This document shows, piece after piece, positions 10,924-20,423 of a DNA stretch of 64,000 nt. Numbering within the stretch: the stretch's first letter is position 1; each line of letters starts with the position of its first letter. The DNA lies in NCBI GenBank assembly GCA_001913845.2, contig MKGP02000007.1, positions 1 through 64,000 of the forward strand, read 5' to 3'. The notes beneath the pieces are model-generated. The model worked only from the letters and a program-made list of their open reading frames with translations, searched no databases and was not told where the DNA came from. The position numbers and the translations under genes were made by a program. Source of the stretch: Limnothrix sp. CACIAM 69d. Its GTDB lineage: Bacteria > Cyanobacteriota > Cyanobacteriia > CACIAM-69d.

Positions 10924-11652
10924 ATGGTTTGTGATGCTGCTACTGGAACCAATGGGGAATATGCCGGGCCGATCGCCCTCTGTTGGCACTTGAATTTGCA
11001 AACCACAGCTTACGAAGTGGCTTGGGGTTGGCAGCACCAGTGGCAGGCCGATCGAATCTCAGATCCAACGCTGCCCGATGGGTTCATGCTGTTGGAACAT
11101 CCGCCGGTTTATACCCTGGGGCGTGGGGCCGATCGCGCCTTTGTGCGGTTTGACCCCGCAACCCATCCCGTGCCGTTGGTGCCCATTGAGCGCGGAGGCG
11201 AGGTTACCCACCATTGCCCCGGACAGTTGGTCGGCTATCCGATTTTGAATTTGCGCCGTCACCAACCGGATCTCCATTGGTATCTGCGCCAGTTGGAGGA
11301 GGTGTTGATTCGGGCGATCGGGACTTGGGGTTTGGCGGCGGAACGGCTGCCGGGCCTGACGGGGGTGTGGCTAAAGGGGTGCAAGGTGGCGGCGATCGGG
11401 ATTCAGGTCAGCCGTTGGGTGACCATGCACGGCTTTGCTCTGAATGTGGATTGTGAGCTGGCGGGCTTTCGGGAAATCGTGCCCTGTGGAATTGCCGATC
11501 GCCCCGTGGGCCGACTGGTGGATTTTGTGCCCGGTTTGACGGTGGCCCAGGTGCGATCGGTGGTGGCAGAGCAGTTTGCGGCGGTGTTTGGCCTGCGCTT
11601 GGAACCCTGCCCCCCAACCCACCGACCGGCGGGCGCATTGATTTTGCCCTAG
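10924..11652 (+). CDS. lipB: Octanoyl-[acyl carrier protein]:protein octanoyltransferase LipB
   Basis: LipB moves the octanoyl group from acyl carrier protein onto lipoyl domains, the first step of protein lipoylation. The lipA gene later in this window does the second. The 242-residue protein shows the family motif [18 protein letters not shown] and the catalytic pair of Lys ([15 protein letters not shown]) and Cys (CEL/EIVPCGI). The stop codon overlaps that of hypB on the other strand: both stops fall within CTAG at 11649-11652, so the two genes converge with no spacer. Confidence 0.95.
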
Positions 11653-12632
11653 GGAGCCAAGCTGGCGGCCGAAGTGGAGCAGGCGCGATCTCGCTGAACC
11701 AAAAGCCAGTCGTACCAATCGGTCAACCCTTCGCCGGTCAGAGACGAAAGGGGCAAAATTCGCGCCTTGGGGTTCACCTGCTTCACGGCGGCGATCGCCC
11801 GGTCTAGATCAAAGGGCAAATAGGGGAGCAAATCAATTTTGCTCAGGAGCACCAAATCGCAGGCCCGAAACAGGTGTGGATACTTCAGGGGTTTATCTTC
11901 ACCCTCAGTGACCGAAAAAATCCCGACCCGGGACGCTTCTCCCAAATCAAACAGCGCAGGACAAACCAGGTTGCCCACGTTCTCGATCGCCAAAATGCTG
12001 CCCGGTGGCGGTTGCAGTTGCTGACAGCCTCCTTGCACCATGGCCGCGTCCAGATGGCAACCCGTGCCCGTGTTGACCTGAACCACGGGGCAACCGGTGG
12101 CCCGCACCCGTTCCGCATCGTTCAAGGTGGCCTGATCTCCTTCAATGACGGCGAAGGAGACCCGATCGGCCAAATCCGTCAGGGTTTTCACCAGCAGCGT
12201 TGTTTTGCCGGCCCCGGGCCCGCTCATCAGGTTCAGAGCCCAAATGCCCTGGGTTTGGAACCATTGGCGGTTGGCGGCGGCCAGTTGGTTGTTTTTGTCT
12301 AGTAGCCGCGCTTCGAGGTGCAGGGTTTGGGTGACCGGATCCGTTGCCGTCAGAGAGGGGCGATCGGCTGGGTGAGGATCCCGATCGGTAGGGGGATGAT
12401 CGTGATGATGACCGGGAGGATGGGCATGGTGGTGAGGAGCAGGGCTGGGTGTTGCGGGCCCGTGGCGATGCACTACCACCGAACCATCGGGATGTTGGTG
12501 ACTGTGCCAATCGGAGCCGATCGGGGGGGGGCCCAACGCTGGATCGATCGCCGCTGATGGGGGGCGCTCAGTTAGGGATAGGTTGGTGATCGTGACCGAT
12601 GCCCCCTCATCACAACCGCAGGTTACGCACAT
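11649..12632 (-). CDS. hypB: Hydrogenase nickel-incorporation GTPase HypB
   Basis: HypB is the SIMIBI GTPase that, with HypA, loads nickel into the large subunit precursor of [NiFe]-hydrogenase. The 327-residue protein starts MCVTCGC, the conserved N-terminal metal-binding motif. A long histidine-rich segment follows ([23 protein letters not shown], about residues 50-90), probably a nickel store. Then comes the GTPase domain with P-loop [10 protein letters not shown] and switch residues [17 protein letters not shown] eight bases before the chosen ATG supports the start; the longer frame runs 26 codons upstream into hypA. It is the last gene of the hypFCDEAB operon and overlaps hypA by 10 bases. 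Confidence 0.95.
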
Positions 12633-12964
12633 GGGATGATCTCCAAGGTTTTTAAAATCAAGTCTTGGCCCGCCTCGATCGCCCAATCCAAGCTGTTGCA
12701 ATGGGGGCAAATCCCCACCACATCATCCAGGGGGAAATCCCGGCCGCAATGGTGGCAGCGGGCCAAGCCAGGCACGATCGTGATGTCCAACTCCGCCCCC
12801 TCCAGGGCCGTGCCCATGGCGCAGGGGCCAAAACAAAAGGCGATCGCCTCCGTGGAAATGCCCGACAGGGCCCCCACGGCCAAACCCAGTCGGCGGATGG
12901 GGGCCCCTTGGGCCTGAGCCAGCGCCAACCGTACCAGTTCCTGAGTAATGCCTAGTTCGTGCAT
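12623..12964 (-). CDS. hypA: Hydrogenase maturation factor HypA (nickel metallochaperone)
   Basis: A 113-residue protein beginning MHELGI, where Met1-His2-Glu3 form the nickel site. A zinc site of two CxxC motifs follows (CHHC and CPHC, about residues 69-87). Residues 5-55 form the family's helix-sheet nickel-binding part (ITQELVRLALAQAQ). HypA delivers nickel in partnership with HypB, whose gene it overlaps by 10 bases, indicating translational coupling. The ATG has a strong Shine-Dalgarno, AGGAGG, five bases upstream. Just upstream lies a four-unit 14-bp tandem repeat in the gap to hypE. Confidence 0.95.
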   Translation of the reverse strand: MHELGITQELVRLALAQAQGAPIRRLGLAVGALSGISTEAIAFCFGPCAMGTALEGAELDITIVPGLARCHHCGRDFPLDDVVGICPHCNSLDWAIEAGQDLILKTLEIIPCA

Positions 12965-13060: not shown

Positions 13061-14176
13061 CTAACAAATTCGGGGCAAGGGATCGCCCATCGGCCACTCA
13101 ATAATTCGTTCAGAACCAAAGCGCGTTTGCAAAATCACCACGGGCGGATCCGCCTTGGTCACATGGCCCACCAAACAGGCCTCCCGTCCTTCCGGCAGCA
13201 TTTGCATGGCCATCAGGGCCCGAGCTGCAAATTCCCCCGGAACCACCGCCACTAACAGACCTTCGTTAGCCATGTGCAAAGGATCGAGACCCAACACTTC
13301 GCAGGCGGCGGCCACGGGCGGCCGCACGGGCAACGCCGCCTCCTCGATCACCATGCTGACGCGGCTGGTTTGGGCAAATTCATTCAGCACGGCCGCCACG
13401 CCGCCCCGAGTGGCATCGCGCATGGCCCGCACGGTGGGACAAGCTTCACAGAGGGCCGCCGCCAGATCATGCAGGGGCTGGCAATCGCTGGTGATGTCCG
13501 CTTCGAGGGCCAAGTCTCCTCGGGCTAACAAAATAGCCGTGCCATGGTCGCCCATGGGGCCACTGAGCAGAATGGCATCACCCGGTTGCAGGTAGCGCGG
13601 CCCGGGCACTTGGTTCGATCGCGCCACGCCCACTCCGGCGGTGTTGATATAGATTTGGTCACCTTTGCCCCGAGGCACAACCTTTGTGTCGCCGGCCACC
13701 ACCTTGACGCGGGCCGTGTCGGCGGCCAGTTTCATGCTCTGGGCAATGCGGCGTAGCAGGGCGATCGGGGTGCCCTCTTCGAGGATGAACCCACAGGAGA
13801 GATAAAGCGGCTGGGCCCCGGTCACGGCCAAATCATTCACCGTGCCGTTGATGGCCAGGCTGCCGATGTCGCCGCCGGGAAAAAACAGCGGATCCACCAC
13901 GAAGGAATCGGTGGTGAAGGCCAATCGATCGCCCCGGGCCATGAACAGGGCTAAGTCCAGCCGCGCACTGTCATCCAGCGCATTGAGGGCATCGCTGCGA
14001 AAGGTTTCTAGGAAAATATCCGTGATCAGGTTATGGGTGGCCCGGCCGCCGCTGCCGTGGGCCAGGGTGATGTAGCCTTCGTCGCTCGATCGGGTGCGGT
14101 GCTGGGGTTGCTGAAACTCGAGCACGTTGGATGGGGGGGTGGCGAGGGAATCGGACGGATGATTAGAAGAAGCCAT
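13061..14176 (-). CDS. hypE: Hydrogenase maturation dehydratase HypE
   Basis: HypE dehydrates the carbamoyl group on its own C-terminal cysteine to thiocyanate, the cyanide donor for the Fe(CN)2CO centre. The 371-residue protein ends PLPRIC, the required terminal Pro-Arg-Ile-Cys. The PurM-like ATPase core shows LAHGSGGRATHNLI, SAR-like DSARLDL, the FTTDSFVVDPLFFPGGDIG metal/ATP motif and KVVPRGKGDQIYINT. The N-terminal 34 residues before GYITLAHGSGG are Ser/Pro-rich and longer than in many homologues. No clear Shine-Dalgarno marks the chosen ATG, so a later start is possible. Confidence 0.95.
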   Translation of the reverse strand: MASSNHPSDSLATPPSNVLEFQQPQHRTRSSDEGYITLAHGSGGRATHNLITDIFLETFRSDALNALDDSARLDLALFMARGDRLAFTTDSFVVDPLFFPGGDIGSLAINGTVNDLAVTGAQPLYLSCGFILEEGTPIALLRRIAQSMKLAADTARVKVVAGDTKVVPRGKGDQIYINTAGVGVARSNQVPGPRYLQPGDAILLSGPMGDHGTAILLARGDLALEADITSDCQPLHDLAAALCEACPTVRAMRDATRGGVAAVLNEFAQTSRVSMVIEEAALPVRPPVAAACEVLGLDPLHMANEGLLVAVVPGEFAARALMAMQMLPEGREACLVGHVTKADPPVVILQTRFGSERIIEWPMGDPLPRIC

Positions 14177-14223: not shown

Positions 14224-15402
14224 CTATCGGGCCAATTCTGATTGCAGCGGGGGGCGGGCGGACGCTTCGGCAAATCTGCGGGGGGCGGCCATGGGTGATC
14301 GGGGGCCCCCGTGACCGTACTTGTAATAGGCAGCGCAGGCCCCTTCGGAGGAAACCATGCAAGCGCCTAGGGGATGGTCAGGGGTGCAACCGCGACCAAA
14401 GGCGCTGCATTCCCAGGGTTTCAGCTTGCCCTGCAAAATGAGGCCACATTGGCAAACGGGTGAATCCTCACTGGCTTGGCTGGGTAGGCAATAGCGCTGT
14501 TCCGCGTCAAAGGCCGCAAAGGCCGGAGCGATCGCCAAACCCGATCGGGGCAAGGATCCCAAGCCGCGCCACTCAAATTGCTCCCGCACTGTGAACACCT
14601 GAGCCAGGGCGGCCAGCGCTGGACTGTTGCCCTCGGGCTTCACCAGCCGGTGATATTGGTTTTCCACAGCGCAGCGCCCTTCAACCAACTGCAACAGCAA
14701 CATCCAGATCGATTGGAGCAGGTCGATCGGCTCAAACCCCCCCACCACCACGGGTTTCTGATAGCGATCGACCACCGCTTGATAGGGATCGGTGCCAATG
14801 ACGGCGCTCACGTGGCCGGGGCCAATGAACCCATCCAAGCGCAAGCCGCTGGCCTGGAGCAGAAATTCCAGAGCCGGGACAACGAGCACATGGTTACAAA
14901 ACACGCTGAAGTTGGCTTGCTGGGCGCGGGCCGCCGCCAGGATGGTCATGGCAACGGCGGGAGCAGTGGTTTCAAAGCCCAAGCCAAAAAAGACCACGGG
15001 CCGATCGGGATGGGTTTGGGCCAAGGTCAGCGCATCGAGGGGCGAATAGACCACGCGCACATCGGCTCCTCGCGCCTTGGCCTGCATGAGGCTGCCCCGC
15101 GCTCCGGGCACTCGCAGGGCATCACCAAAGGTGGCAAAGATCATGCCCGGTTGTTCTGCTAGGGCGATCGCGTCGTCAATTCGGCCCCGAGGCATGATGC
15201 AAACGGGGCAACCGGGCCCATGGATTAGCTCCACGGTTTCTGGCAGCAGGGCTTCGAGGCCATGTTTAAAAATGGTGTGGGTCTGGCCGCCGCAGACTTC
15301 CATCAGGGCCACGGGGCGATCGAGCCGTTGCGCTAGATGGGCAATTTCCCGCACCCAGCCCGCCACCGATGCGGGATCACGAAATTCCGTCACAAATTTC
15401 AT
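14224..15402 (-). CDS. hypD: Hydrogenase maturation iron-sulfur protein HypD
   Basis: HypD, a 4Fe-4S protein, forms with HypC the scaffold on which the Fe(CN)2CO unit is built. The 392-residue protein has the conserved blocks MEVCGGQTHTIFKHGL, HGPGCPVCIMPRGRID and FFGLGFETTAPA. The C-terminal cysteine-rich iron-sulfur region (CQCGLILQGKLKPWECSAFGRGCTPDHPLGACMVSSEGACAAYYKY, listed here in parts) is also present. The start at MKFVTEFRDP is supported by AGGAG seven bases upstream, although the frame continues 42 codons higher. The gap to hypC holds a short tandem repeat. Confidence 0.95.
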   Translation of the reverse strand: MKFVTEFRDPASVAGWVREIAHLAQRLDRPVALMEVCGGQTHTIFKHGLEALLPETVELIHGPGCPVCIMPRGRIDDAIALAEQPGMIFATFGDALRVPGARGSLMQAKARGADVRVVYSPLDALTLAQTHPDRPVVFFGLGFETTAPAVAMTILAAARAQQANFSVFCNHVLVVPALEFLLQASGLRLDGFIGPGHVSAVIGTDPYQAVVDRYQKPVVVGGFEPIDLLQSIWMLLLQLVEGRCAVENQYHRLVKPEGNSPALAALAQVFTVREQFEWRGLGSLPRSGLAIAPAFAAFDAEQRYCLPSQASEDSPVCQCGLILQGKLKPWECSAFGRGCTPDHPLGACMVSSEGACAAYYKYGHGGPRSPMAAPRRFAEASARPPLQSELAR

Positions 15403-15519
15403 CGCACACTCCTGAAACGGCTCTTCAAAAGGCTTTTTGGTAATGACTGCTTCAGCAAATGACTTCTTGCAATGACTTCTTAAAACACCGTTTCTGGAAC
15501 AGGGGTTGAGACAGCCAGA

Positions 15520-15568
15520 CTGGATCACGCGGGAACTGAATCATGCGGGAATCTGGATCACGCGGGAG
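15520..15568. repeat. 16-bp tandem array between hypC and hypD
   Basis: Three degenerate units of CTGGATCACGCGGGAA start at 15520, 15536 and 15553. The last unit overlaps the 3' end of hypC. Confidence 0.8.
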
Positions 15569-15803
15569 TGGTCAGGCGATCGATCCAAGTCAGGGTTTCT
15601 GTGGCTGCGGCCACATCTAACTCCTCCAAGGCAAAACCCGCGTGAACCACCACCCAGCGCCCCACCCACTGCTCGATCGGGCGATCGGGCGTGACCAAAC
15701 AGGCCAAGCTGACCGATCGCCGAACACCGCTCAAATCAACCGTGGCGAGTTGTTGATCCCCATCGACAATGGCCACCACTTGGCCCGGAACCGCTAAACA
15801 CAT
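15558..15803 (-). CDS. hypC: Hydrogenase maturation chaperone HypC
   Basis: An 81-residue HypC/HupF chaperone. It starts MCLAVPGQVV, with the invariant Cys2 that binds iron together with HypD. An OB-fold-like barrel (QQLATVDLSGVRRSVSLACL) and the terminal helix containing ALEELDVAAATETL follow. It carries the Fe(CN)2CO group to the hydrogenase large subunit. The frame opens five codons higher; the ATG before CLAVPG is required by the family, and GAGAGG upstream supports it. It lies between hypF and hypD in the operon. Confidence 0.95.
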   Translation of the reverse strand: MCLAVPGQVVAIVDGDQQLATVDLSGVRRSVSLACLVTPDRPIEQWVGRWVVVHAGFALEELDVAAATETLTWIDRLTTPA

Positions 15804-15836
15804 CCTGAAACCTCTCAATGACTCCTAAGGGCTGGC

Positions 15837-15927: not shown

Positions 15928-18900
15928 CTAAACATGGCCCAACTGGAGCCAAGCGGCGGCGATCGCCGTTTGCCCCAACGCCAAGCCCCCGTCGTTTACG
16001 GGCACCTGTTGTGGCAACAGCAGCGGATCGTGCAGATTGCTGGCCATCAGGGCGGCTTCCAAGCATTGCAACAACAGCCGATTTTGGAAGACTCCACCCC
16101 CACAGGCGATCGCCCCAAAGTGCAATCCCTGCTGCTTCAAGGTTTGGGCCGCTTGCACCAGGGCTTGGGCCAAGCCGCGATGGAACCGCAGGGCCATCAC
16201 CGCCTCGGGCAGCCCCAATGACCGATCCAAAATCAGGGCTTCCCAAAGGGGTTGGGGATGCAGCCACAGCAGCGATTCCGATCGCAGCTCGATCGGGTAA
16301 GCCTGTTGATCTTGATCCCAAGCTTGGCGGGCTAGGTTTTCGAGGGCGATCGCCGCTTGGCCTTCATAGCTCAAGCAATCGGGCGCACAGCCCAAAAAGG
16401 CCGCCACCGCATCAAACAGCCGTCCGCAGGATGAAGACCAAGGGCTGTTGAACCCCGTTTGGGCCATGCCCGTCAGCAGATTCAATGGCTTTTGGGCAAA
16501 CCAAGCCTCCGAGTCCACCCGATCGAGCAGGCCCGTGGCGTGGAACTGGGCGTATAGATTCCGCCAAGGCTCCTGAGCAGCGCGGTTGCCCCCCAGTAAC
16601 CGCGCCGGCCACAGGGCCCCGACTCGGTGATATTGCTCGTAGGTAGTCCACAGCAGCTCGCCGCCCCAAACCGTGCCATCGCTGCCCCAACCGAATCCAT
16701 CCAGGGCAATGCCCAACACGGGCGGGCGATCGAATCCCCATTGGTTATCGGCCAAGCAGGCGGCAATGTGGGCATGGTGGTGCTGAATGCGCAGCAATGG
16801 CACTTCCAAAGCCTTGGCCAAGGATTCACCCACCTTCACGGCTTGGCCATCCGGGTGCAAGTCCACGGCGATCGCACTGGGGCGGTGGTCAAACAAGTTG
16901 CGCAAGTCCGCAATCGCGGTGCTGTAGGCCTGGAGGCAGGCGGGTGAGTCCAAGTCTCCAAGGTGAGGCGAGAGGATCGCTTGTCCGTCCCGCGAGAGGC
17001 AAATGGTGTTTTTCAGATCGCTGCCCAGGGCCAAGATCGGCGGGCTGCTGGTGAGGCCCGGCGGCAGGTTAATGGAACTGGGAGCGTAGCCGCGCGATCG
17101 GCGAATCACCTGCACCGAAGTGGGCAACACCCGCACCACCGAGTCATCCACCCGATTGAGGATCGATCGGTTGTGGAGCAAAAAGGCATCGGCGATCGAC
17201 TGCAACTGAAGATGGGCTTCGTGGTTGTCAATGCATTGGGGATTGCCGGCCCGGTTGCCACTGGTCAGCACAATGGGCCGATCCACCGCACTCATCAGGA
17301 GATGATGCAGGGGAGAGTAGGGCAACATCACCCCCGCCTCCGTCATGTCAGGAGCCACCGACGGGGCCAAGTAATGGGGATCGTGGATGTTGAGCAGCAC
17401 GATCGGGGCAGCCCCCCCCAGCAGGAGTGATCGCTCGTGATCACTCACTGTGCAAAACTGCCGCACGGACTCCAAATTGCGGGCCATCACTGCCAAAGGC
17501 TTGTGGGGGCGATGTTTGCGGGCTCGCAGCCGTTGCACCACGGCCTCCTGGGTGGCATCGCAGGCTAAGTGGATGCCGCCTAAGCCTTTGATGGCCACGA
17601 TCGCCCCCTGGCGAATGGCTTCCGCCGCCTGGGCGATCGCCTGCTCATCCTTCACAATCGGCCGTTGCTGGCTGGGGCGCTCAAACCAAATGCGTGGTCC
17701 GCATTCCGGGCAGGCCGTGGGCTGGGCATGGAAGCGACGATCGCCCGGATTGTCGTAATCGCGCTGGCAGTCGGGACAGAGCTGAAACCCCACCATGCTG
17801 GTGCGCACCCGATCGTAGGGCAGGGAGCGAATCACCGTCAGCCGCGGCCCGCAATGGGTGCAGTTCACGAAGGGATAGTGATAATACCGGCTGTGGGGAT
17901 CGTGCAAATCCCGCAGACAGGCGGCACAGGTGGCCGTGTCCGGTGCAATTTGGGTGCGCACCGGGCCTGACTGGCTCTCCAAAATCCGAAAAGATAAGGG
18001 CGATCTCCCTAGGAGTTCCGCCGAGGACAAATCCAGGGCGTGGCTGCGATGGGAAACCGGCAAAGGGGCCGATCGAGACACGATCGGGGTTGGGGGTTGC
18101 AGCGGCGTATATAATGCGGGCCCCGGATCCGCATCGTCCACCACCACCGGCACAATCGGCCCCAGGGGAGTCGTGGGCGGCTCCGTCGGTTCCAAGGGCC
18201 GCAACCGATCGATGGCCGGCTCCAAGAGTTCCGCCAGTTCCTCCGCCAAGGAGTTGGACAGTTCTGGATCCAGGGGCTGATGTAAGTCTTGAGCGAAATC
18301 CTGATTGAGACCGTGATCCTCCCGATCGTGATCCACCCGATCGTGATTTATCAGATTGTGATCTAAATCTTGAGTGGAATCTTGATGCCAATCCTGGTCA
18401 AACCCCAACGATGGAGGATGATCTCGCCAATCTTGATCGTTGGGTTCTGCCCGATCGCCCGATCGCCGATCTGAGATGCCAGGACGGACATCAGGACGGA
18501 TGCCAGAACGCGGCCCCCAATCGCCCGATGGTTCGCTGGGAGCAGCCGTGGGTGAGCTATCAAACAACTGATCCAAGCGCGATCGAGACAGGGAATCGCT
18601 GGCGGGGGCTGTGACTCCGTTGCCATCAACGGCCGAGCGGGGATCATCCCGATCGCCTAAATCCGTCTGATCCACACCGGAATGCCCATCCAACTCCGTC
18701 CGCACCGGATCGACCTGATCCAACTGCCTAGCGCTCTCGAATCCCGCGCCATGCTCAGGGTCGATCGGGGACGGCCGCTCACCTTCGGGGCCCCTGTCTA
18801 ACCAGCGCGATCGTCCATGGTTACCAGCTTCCCCTTGCCCCACGCTTGATCCTTCCCGGGGATCCATCGCCATCACTTCTCCGTAGGTTTTCCCAGCCTG

Positions 18901-19656
18901 CCGCTCGATCGGGCCGTCATCGGCAACCGCCACGGCACTCCATGGGGCCGGCTGCGCGGCTTCCTCCGTCACCGCTGACCCCTCCGCCAGTGACTCCGCC
19001 ACTGGATCATCGGCATAGCTGGAGCGATGTTCTGGTCGCAAATGCAAAGGGCAGCGCGGGCCCTGGAGTTGGTTCTCGGTTGATTGCCCTTGGGAACTGT
19101 GGGTGCGGGTGGCCTGGCGATTGCGCTGAATTTGCATCGCCGTTTGTTGCCCCAGGGCGATCGACTGTTCATCCCAAGTGAGGTCGTCGGATCCAGACTC
19201 AAAGGTCGCTGTGAACCTGGATGGCCCTGTGGGCAAGTTTGTTAGCCGTTCTGTCGTGGATTTGGTTGCTGATTCTGCGGGTAATTGCTCAGGGGCCGCC
19301 AGCTCGCCCAATGCGCCAGATTCCAATGGAGAAACAGCAGGCAGGTTGCCACTCGGCAATGGCAGTCCTGGCTCCATCAATTCCGACAGGGCGATCGGGG
19401 TTCGGATCAGCGTATCAATGCGGGAAAGGGGCGGTTTTTCCTGATAAAGCCGTTGTAAAAAAACATCAATTTGATCCGGATATCCTGCAATCCGAATCAC
19501 CACGCCAACTCCATCATTCGCCACCGATCCCATCAGTCCACATTCGATCGCTAATCGATAAACCGTGGGACGAAAGCCGACTCCTTGGACAACGCCAACG
19601 ACCCGAATTTCTTCGGCTCTCATCGTCAACGATTGCTCGTCTTGAGTGCTGGCCAT
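15928..19656 (-). CDS. hypF: Carbamoyltransferase HypF with a ~460-residue low-complexity insertion
   Basis: HypF turns carbamoyl phosphate and ATP into carbamoyl-AMP and passes the carbamoyl group to HypE. At 1242 residues this is about 60% longer than usual (roughly 750-800). All standard parts are present: acylphosphatase domain (VQGVGFRPTVYRLA, residues 22-35); two zinc fingers (CAAC/CTHC and CPDC/CPEC, about 577-660); YrdC domain (KGLGGIHLACDA); and the Kae1/HypF C-terminus (HHHAHIAACLAD, LALDGFG-like GIALDGFGWGSDGT, CGGGVFQNRLL). Between acylphosphatase domain and first zinc finger, about residues 92-554, lies a Pro/Asp/Gln/Ser-rich insertion with no recognisable fold. One part of it is very Asp/His/Gln-rich. 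The start has GGGAG eight bases upstream; the frame extends 11 codons higher. First gene of hypFCDEAB. Confidence 0.93.
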   Translation of the reverse strand: MASTQDEQSLTMRAEEIRVVGVVQGVGFRPTVYRLAIECGLMGSVANDGVGVVIRIAGYPDQIDVFLQRLYQEKPPLSRIDTLIRTPIALSELMEPGLPLPSGNLPAVSPLESGALGELAAPEQLPAESATKSTTERLTNLPTGPSRFTATFESGSDDLTWDEQSIALGQQTAMQIQRNRQATRTHSSQGQSTENQLQGPRCPLHLRPEHRSSYADDPVAESLAEGSAVTEEAAQPAPWSAVAVADDGPIERQAGKTYGEVMAMDPREGSSVGQGEAGNHGRSRWLDRGPEGERPSPIDPEHGAGFESARQLDQVDPVRTELDGHSGVDQTDLGDRDDPRSAVDGNGVTAPASDSLSRSRLDQLFDSSPTAAPSEPSGDWGPRSGIRPDVRPGISDRRSGDRAEPNDQDWRDHPPSLGFDQDWHQDSTQDLDHNLINHDRVDHDREDHGLNQDFAQDLHQPLDPELSNSLAEELAELLEPAIDRLRPLEPTEPPTTPLGPIVPVVVDDADPGPALYTPLQPPTPIVSRSAPLPVSHRSHALDLSSAELLGRSPLSFRILESQSGPVRTQIAPDTATCAACLRDLHDPHSRYYHYPFVNCTHCGPRLTVIRSLPYDRVRTSMVGFQLCPDCQRDYDNPGDRRFHAQPTACPECGPRIWFERPSQQRPIVKDEQAIAQAAEAIRQGAIVAIKGLGGIHLACDATQEAVVQRLRARKHRPHKPLAVMARNLESVRQFCTVSDHERSLLLGGAAPIVLLNIHDPHYLAPSVAPDMTEAGVMLPYSPLHHLLMSAVDRPIVLTSGNRAGNPQCIDNHEAHLQLQSIADAFLLHNRSILNRVDDSVVRVLPTSVQVIRRSRGYAPSSINLPPGLTSSPPILALGSDLKNTICLSRDGQAILSPHLGDLDSPACLQAYSTAIADLRNLFDHRPSAIAVDLHPDGQAVKVGESLAKALEVPLLRIQHHHAHIAACLADNQWGFDRPPVLGIALDGFGWGSDGTVWGGELLWTTYEQYHRVGALWPARLLGGNRAAQEPWRNLYAQFHATGLLDRVDSEAWFAQKPLNLLTGMAQTGFNSPWSSSCGRLFDAVAAFLGCAPDCLSYEGQAAIALENLARQAWDQDQQAYPIELRSESLLWLHPQPLWEALILDRSLGLPEAVMALRFHRGLAQALVQAAQTLKQQGLHFGAIACGGGVFQNRLLLQCLEAALMASNLHDPLLLPQQVPVNDGGLALGQTAIAAAWLQLGHV

Positions 19657-20423
19657 GGCATATTCTCCCAAAGGAGCGGCATCAAACATACAGGTTTACT
19701 TAGGTTGGTTTCCTTAACAGGGACTAGGAACCTAGTGCAAAGGTTCAAAATTCCCTATGTCAGATGTAGCGCGTTTGCCATGAAAATAGAGGAATCTTTT
19801 TGTTTTTTTAGCTTTTACTATCAGCAATCTTTAGAAACCTCTGTGTTTTTTAAAGATCATCAACAATGGTTCTTGAATCCGGATTCGATCAAGGGTTCAA
19901 ATCCATACTCGAATTTCTCGGATCTTTAAGAAAGATTTAATATTTCGATTGTTTTTGAGAGGAGTCTTAGGTCTGATCTGGGTAGATTTTGGATATGTTT
20001 TCAGTATATTTCAGATCCTCTGTCTGTGTATTGTAAAGATTGCGTAATATTGTTGTAAAAATGATCGCAAAAATAACAGAAAAGTGTTTTGCAAATGGTT
20101 CAAAAAAACTTAAAGATGCTTTAGAGATAATTTTAAAAATATTTAGAAATGATCTAAAAAATTCACTTTTTGAGCCAACTTGAAGCGTAATGTTTTGAAG
20201 AATAAAGTGAAAGAAATCAGAAAACAGTCTGATCTGCTGCCTGCCAGGTTTTATGAGGAACTCAAAAAAGATTTGTACCTCGATCTGAACTTCGACTTAG
20301 AAACAAAATTCAAAAAAATTTGTACTGTTCTCTAGATTTGGATTGCGGCAATTACGTTCAGCTCTCAGGGGATGTCTGAAAGGCCTAAACGGCTACCTTG
20401 CGGATCTCACCAACTGATCCAGA

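Follow-up and report, generated by a model that had tools for sequence, protein, structure and literature searches.

What are some 460 additional residues doing inside one domain of HypF, and does the enzyme around them still look orthodox? The question is raised by the hypF gene of Limnothrix sp. CACIAM 69d (genome G000), which lies in the window analyzed here, a stretch of 64,000 nucleotides of contig MKGP02000007.1. An initial annotation, based on the letters alone, had described a protein of 1242 residues with all HypF domains intact and a low-complexity insertion at 17995-19383, for which a long tether, a scaffold for the other Hyp proteins or a harmless expansion were proposed.

Size and position of the insertion in HypF

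The window HypF passed the TIGR00143 profile over its full length (771.9 bits, curated cut-off 466.1), and every HypF domain was matched by Pfam and NCBIfam, in agreement with the initial annotation. The reported 1242 residues correspond to a start at Met12, the open frame having 1253 codons, and the extra part was found very near its proposed position (Table 1). The cysteine pairs of the zinc fingers are invariant in the alignment. AlphaFold gave a good model of the core, resembling the solved HypFs 3vth and 3tsp, and comparison with the close strain G002 indicated strong purifying selection on this core (dN/dS = 0.049). The hypFCDEAB cluster is intact, with hypC, hypD, hypE, hypA and hypB downstream of hypF on the same strand, and HoxH (484 codons) is encoded elsewhere in the genome. 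At the level of genes, HypE, the partner in carbamoyl transfer, is present with its PRIC end, and so is HoxH. A second, divergent hypA/hypB pair was also noticed (G000:C8:12011-13462), as well as in the congener G001 (G001:C17:22511-23857), there despite the lack of a hydrogenase.

The distance from the acylphosphatase (ACP) motif to the zinc fingers was measured with two slightly different rulers. It is 549 residues in the window HypF against 89–95 (median 90) in 62 named HypFs. When measured up to the first zinc-finger Cys pair in all HypF loci read, it is 554 residues in the window, 535 in G002 and 585 in G001, against 94–105 in nearly all others; the next-largest spacings outside the genus, on this second ruler, were 119 (G010) and 126 (G182). 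In G010 and G182 the expansion is at the same loop position, but it amounts to about 24–32 residues instead of 460 and the conserved islands described below are absent.

Pfam PF00708 aligned residues 27–96 of the window HypF with positions 2–71 of its 85, and residues 9–84 of the HypF-N crystal domain 1gxt (91 residues) were aligned as well, in both cases entirely N-terminal to the insertion. Since the ACP model and the crystal domain are partly matched before the insertion and the last strand, β5 (SFRILES), comes after it, the insertion lies inside the ACP fold. As judged from these alignments, it interrupts the β4–β5 loop (loop L5) and not, as the initial annotation had it, exactly the ACP/zinc-finger junction. 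All the elements of a complete ACP fold are found, with VQGVGFRP intact, β1–β4 upstream and β5 downstream of the insertion, and the distance from β5 to the zinc finger is normal. We infer that β5 closes the ACP domain in cis, this strand being modelled by AlphaFold at moderate confidence. If it does, the ACP domain stays in place, the insertion is a side loop and the link from the ACP domain to the rest of the enzyme is not lengthened.

This topology bears on the proposal of a long flexible tether which would free the ACP domain and alter carbamoyl-phosphate channelling. The length and disorder of the insertion would suit such a tether. However, the insertion is N-terminal to β5, a strand which keeps its usual distance from the zinc fingers, and selection on the core is strong; moreover, the carbamate is shielded in an internal tunnel of HypF (PMC12134894), which requires the ACP domain in place. 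A tether is therefore improbable. The same topology could also serve a domain swap. HypF-N (1gxt) and E. coli acylphosphatase have the same ACP fold as the window HypF, whose β4–β5 loop is ~460 residues longer, and in the E. coli protein this loop is the hinge for the swap of β5 (PMC13044899). With the insertion in this hinge, β5 of one HypF might pair in the ACP sheet of the next and generate intertwined oligomers, but the sequence gives no reason to prefer closure in trans to closure in cis, and we regard this device as very unlikely.

Table 1. Features of hypF and of the downstream hyp genes in the window (G000).
Feature	Position	Strand	Residues	Basis or remarks
hypF	15928..19689	(-)	1253 codons; 1242 if start = Met12	One uninterrupted frame; TIGR00143, 771.9 bits
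ACP domain, β1–β4	19378..19620	(-)	24–104	VQGVGFRP catalytic motif intact; PF00708 and 1gxt alignment
Insertion	18001..19377	(-)	105–563, ~460 residues	ACP β4–β5 loop (L5); spacing analysis, AlphaFold pLDDT ~26 over most
Conserved island 1, QLQGPRCPLHLRPEHRSSYAD	19009..19071	(-)	207–227	Motif RCPLHLRPExRSxY; matches G001 insertion
Fast-changing segment	18280..18489	(-)	~401–470	63-nt indel vs G002; 14–15 nt direct repeats
Conserved C-terminal block of insertion	18001..18282	(-)	470–563, about 95 aa	dN/dS and match with G001
Predicted amphipathic helix, ELSNSLAEELAELLEPAIDR	18208..18267	(-)	475–494	AlphaFold helix 452–471 of modelled segment, block pLDDT 57–68
Island 3, HRSHALDLSSAELL	18010..18051	(-)	547–560	Aligns with RRSHPIDLSSGTIL of G001
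Last ACP strand β5, SFRILES	17974..17994	(-)	566–572	C-terminal to insertion; AlphaFold strand 544–546 of modelled segment, block pLDDT 76; alignment
HypF zinc fingers	17680..17937	(-)	~585–670	PF07503, 2 stretches; all Cys pairs present
YrdC-like domain	17095..17622	(-)	690–865	PF01300
Kae1-like carbamoyltransferase domain	15970..17049	(-)	881–1240	PF17788, PF22521; HHHAH and NDGG intact
hypC	15558..15818	(-)		Sequence and Hyp query match
hypD	14224..15528	(-)		TIGR00075, 491 bits; probable start near 15399
hypE	13061..14176	(-)		C-terminus is PRIC
hypA	12623..12964	(-)		Hyp query match
hypB	11649..12710	(-)		His-rich N-terminus

Composition, occurrence and conservation of the insertion

The insertion is rich in Pro, Asp and Ser, as described initially, and also in Ala and Leu. 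It is predicted to be disordered, but with only short and weak repeats it is not strictly low-complexity. The absence of a recognisable fold was supported: AlphaFold modelled most of it at a pLDDT below 30 (about 26), with helices at a few places, and it had no Pfam match. The charge-hydropathy rule of Uversky classed the insertions of G000 and G002 as disordered and that of G001, narrowly, as ordered. The predicted amphipathic helix has a similar counterpart in G001, LADALANELASLLDPLLDPL. Long disordered loops are often protease-sensitive, and the insertion might be cut in the cell, which would release the ACP part from the remainder of HypF; such a cut would leave β5 on the remainder and the ACP domain incomplete, which makes this outcome hardly probable.

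All three genomes of the genus that were examined (G000, G002, G001) carry the insertion and no other sampled cyanobacterium does, the comparison among relatives having been called for by the initial annotation. The HypF of G002 is 95% identical to that of the window. In a TIGR00143 survey of 291 genomes of the class, the longest HypF frames were those of G000 (1255 aa as counted there), G002 (1236 aa) and G001 (1296 aa), and the other full-length frames were mostly of 743–899 aa. Two outliers, G004 (993 aa) and G254 (1101 aa), have ACP spacings near normal (96 and 105, respectively). The G004 frame, from the same family (L033:7331-10309, 993 codons), shows a Pro-rich N-terminal stretch, its start being uncertain, and an Asp-Pro repeat between the YrdC and Kae1-like domains. 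A scan of genome contigs for named HypF loci covered 80 loci, this genus not being among them, and peptides picked from the whole HypF protein gave no match in the contig scan. An assembly error is excluded by the presence of the insertion in the G002 and G001 assemblies, and a fused gene or a frameshift artefact is next to impossible, as no insert-like gene was found elsewhere and the indels are multiples of three.

A search of 96 genomes with the insertion as a whole gave no homologue outside the genus, and a PHROGs search gave only insignificant matches; with no Pfam match either, capture of a separate gene or domain was rejected. The RCPLHLRP motif occurs once in each genome of the genus and at control or chance level elsewhere in the 291 genomes. 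It was rejected as a widespread element, its matches outside the genus numbering 3 against 6 for a reversed-pattern control. Antisense ORFs across the insertion were also rejected, since the one of 335 aa in G002 is shorter in the window and in G001 and substitutions favour the third positions of the sense frame.

The insertion was then compared at two distances, between the close strains G000 and G002 and with the divergent G001 (insertion of 507 aa), using 500 shuffles. Between G000 and G002 it differs by five indels (12, 12, 15, 63 and 3 nt), each a multiple of 3, and substitutions at codon positions 1, 2 and 3 are distributed as 35/30/55, against 13/5/69 in the core. Together with a dN/dS of 0.39 over the whole insertion, these data bear out the earlier view that it is in frame and protein-coding. 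Constraint is uneven along its length: island 1 and the C-terminal block are constrained, and the middle drifts. Island 1 matched the G001 insertion by BLASTP (E = 9e-7), and in the shuffle comparison its score of 85 was reached by 0 of 500 shuffles (maximum 47). The C-terminal block (residues 471–563) has a dN/dS of 0.023 between G000 and G002, with 15 synonymous changes vs 1 nonsynonymous, and its match with the G001 insertion scored 90, also reached by 0 of 500 shuffles but by a narrow margin (maximum 87). The middle was indistinguishable from shuffles (75/500 reached its score) and the N-terminal part borderline (9/500). Because the whole-insertion query missed the G001 insertion, homology to G001 is limited to patches, and as G001 is one divergent genome, the conservation of the islands amounts to one independent comparison. 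A dN/dS >1 was obtained for residues 301–400 of the insertion, resting on just two synonymous changes. Synonymous divergence between G000 and G002 was unusually low in this part (about 18490-18790) and in the ACP part (19378-19689), where recombination is possible.

The drifting middle suits the harmless expansion initially proposed, but the two conserved patches do not. In this explanation, a loop at the surface, remote from the active sites, would have grown by slippage and small duplications and be tolerated as (nearly) neutral. Selection would act only to keep the loop open and soluble and of sufficient length for ACP folding to go undisturbed, the end patches serving this folding. The dN/dS of 0.39 with its unconstrained middle, the direct repeats of 14–15 nt and the 63-nt indel in the fast-changing segment, and the modest enlargement of the same loop in G010 and G182 (spacings of 119 and 126) all speak for it. 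On the other hand, island 1 lies ~100 residues into the insertion, far from both anchors, yet is the stretch best conserved with G001, and the C-terminal block has a dN/dS (0.02) as low as that of the enzyme core. We give neutral expansion considerable weight, as the main rival which comes close behind the docking loop considered below.

HypF in genomes without hydrogenase

No match to PF00374 ([NiFe]-hydrogenase), no HypC and no HypD were found in the G001 genome. In the window and in G002, hypF is separated from hypE by hypC and hypD, and hypE from lipB by hypA and hypB. The G001 order is hypF (1296 aa, with the insertion), a hypE frame (382 aa) and lipB; the locus has lost hypC, hypD and the adjacent hypAB, the hypF and hypE frames being intact (G001:C72, L031:1093-6293). 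G001 HypF has lost catalytic residues (RHHAQ instead of HHHAH, NDGS instead of NDGG), and the cysteine of the C-terminal PRIC of HypE is absent in all three frames. Evolution is fast, with identities to the window of 60% for the HypF core and 49–50% for HypE, vs 65–91% for four reference proteins. Both insertion patches, island 1 and the C-terminal block, are retained. A plain pseudogene was rejected for G001 hypF, as a neutral frame of 1252 codons would be stop-free with P <0.01 at 0.05 substitutions/site, yet hypF (1296) and hypE (382) are both open. On this one genome, hypF and hypE may have an altered function or be under recent relaxation.

HypF or HypF-derived frames without detectable hydrogenase or HypD were found in six genomes of five genera (G001, G003, G005, G120, G158 and G192). 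G003 (L034:8533-10674) and G005 (L035:5023-7158) have frames of 712–714 aa with YrdC and Kae1-like domains and with neither ACP domain nor zinc fingers, in genomes where no hydrogenase and no convincing HypC, HypD, HypE or HypA were found. The dN/dS between these two frames is 0.124 (dS ~1.0), indicating purifying selection, and in the tree the G003 protein was placed beside the genus with moderate support (80/82) and a long branch. Degenerate or truncated frames were found in G120 (885 aa, L166:1256-3910), G158 (490 aa, L168:2665-4134) and G192 (476 aa, L170:2271-3698), whose genomes showed no hydrogenase, no HypD and no convincing HypC or HypE. G063 and G032 were rejected as hydrogenase-less carriers, their assemblies being fragmented and hypE/hypC or hydrogenase present. 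Paralogues of 451–472 aa with the Kae1-like domain only stand beside a canonical HypF in G007 (L169:3319-4734), G031 and G058. The degenerate HypFs of the six genomes are, like the window protein, HypF-derived, and the insertion is common to it and G001; unlike them, the window HypF has its catalytic residues and a full adjoining hyp set.

Possible roles of the insertion

Taken together, these results firmly establish a real, genus-restricted and disordered insertion in loop L5 of the ACP domain of an otherwise orthodox HypF. With all its domains and checked motifs, an intact hypFCDEAB cluster and HoxH in the same genome, the window protein resembles known HypFs (TIGR00143; 3vth, 3tsp/3tsq, 4g9i). 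It differs from them by the roughly 460 residues added within the ACP domain, in a class where most frames have 743–899 aa, and by an ACP to zinc finger spacing of 549 instead of about 90, a value that is typical of HypF and not defining. No HypF insertion of such kind came up in full-text searches of open-licence papers.

We tentatively prefer, at a little under an even chance, to see the insertion as a docking loop particular to this lineage and carried by a working HypF, in which the ACP fold would close in cis and CN-ligand synthesis would be normal. The disordered loop would hang from the ACP edge as an appendage, with the two conserved patches as putative docking motifs for a partner protein. 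The insertion combines disorder with conserved short motifs, as a docking loop should, and this reading is preferred because the patches are common to a distant congener and were retained where hydrogenase maturation is gone. Conservation of the C-terminal block might instead serve the return of β5 to the ACP sheet. Since both patches persist in G001 without HypC, HypD or hydrogenase, neither these two Hyp proteins nor the hydrogenase large subunit would be as likely a candidate partner as HypE or some protein with no part in hydrogenase maturation. For the same reason the proposed scaffolding of other Hyp proteins is weakened as regards HypC and HypD; HypE could still be its target.

The insertion shows the extent to which a domain of an essential maturation enzyme tolerates interruption and is yet retained. 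In a survey of cyanobacteria, hyp genes always accompanied hox or hup (PMC5186783), a rule with which the HypF-derived frames of the six genomes lacking hydrogenase and HypD contrast. The retention of HypF and its loop in G001 without a hydrogenase hints at a second job for HypF. That HypF and HypE have such a hydrogenase-independent role in this lineage, with docking sites in the insertion, and that this role outlived the hydrogenase in G001, is conceivable but rather unlikely. Should HypF indeed act in a second role, the patches conserved in the insertion would be handles to find its partner.
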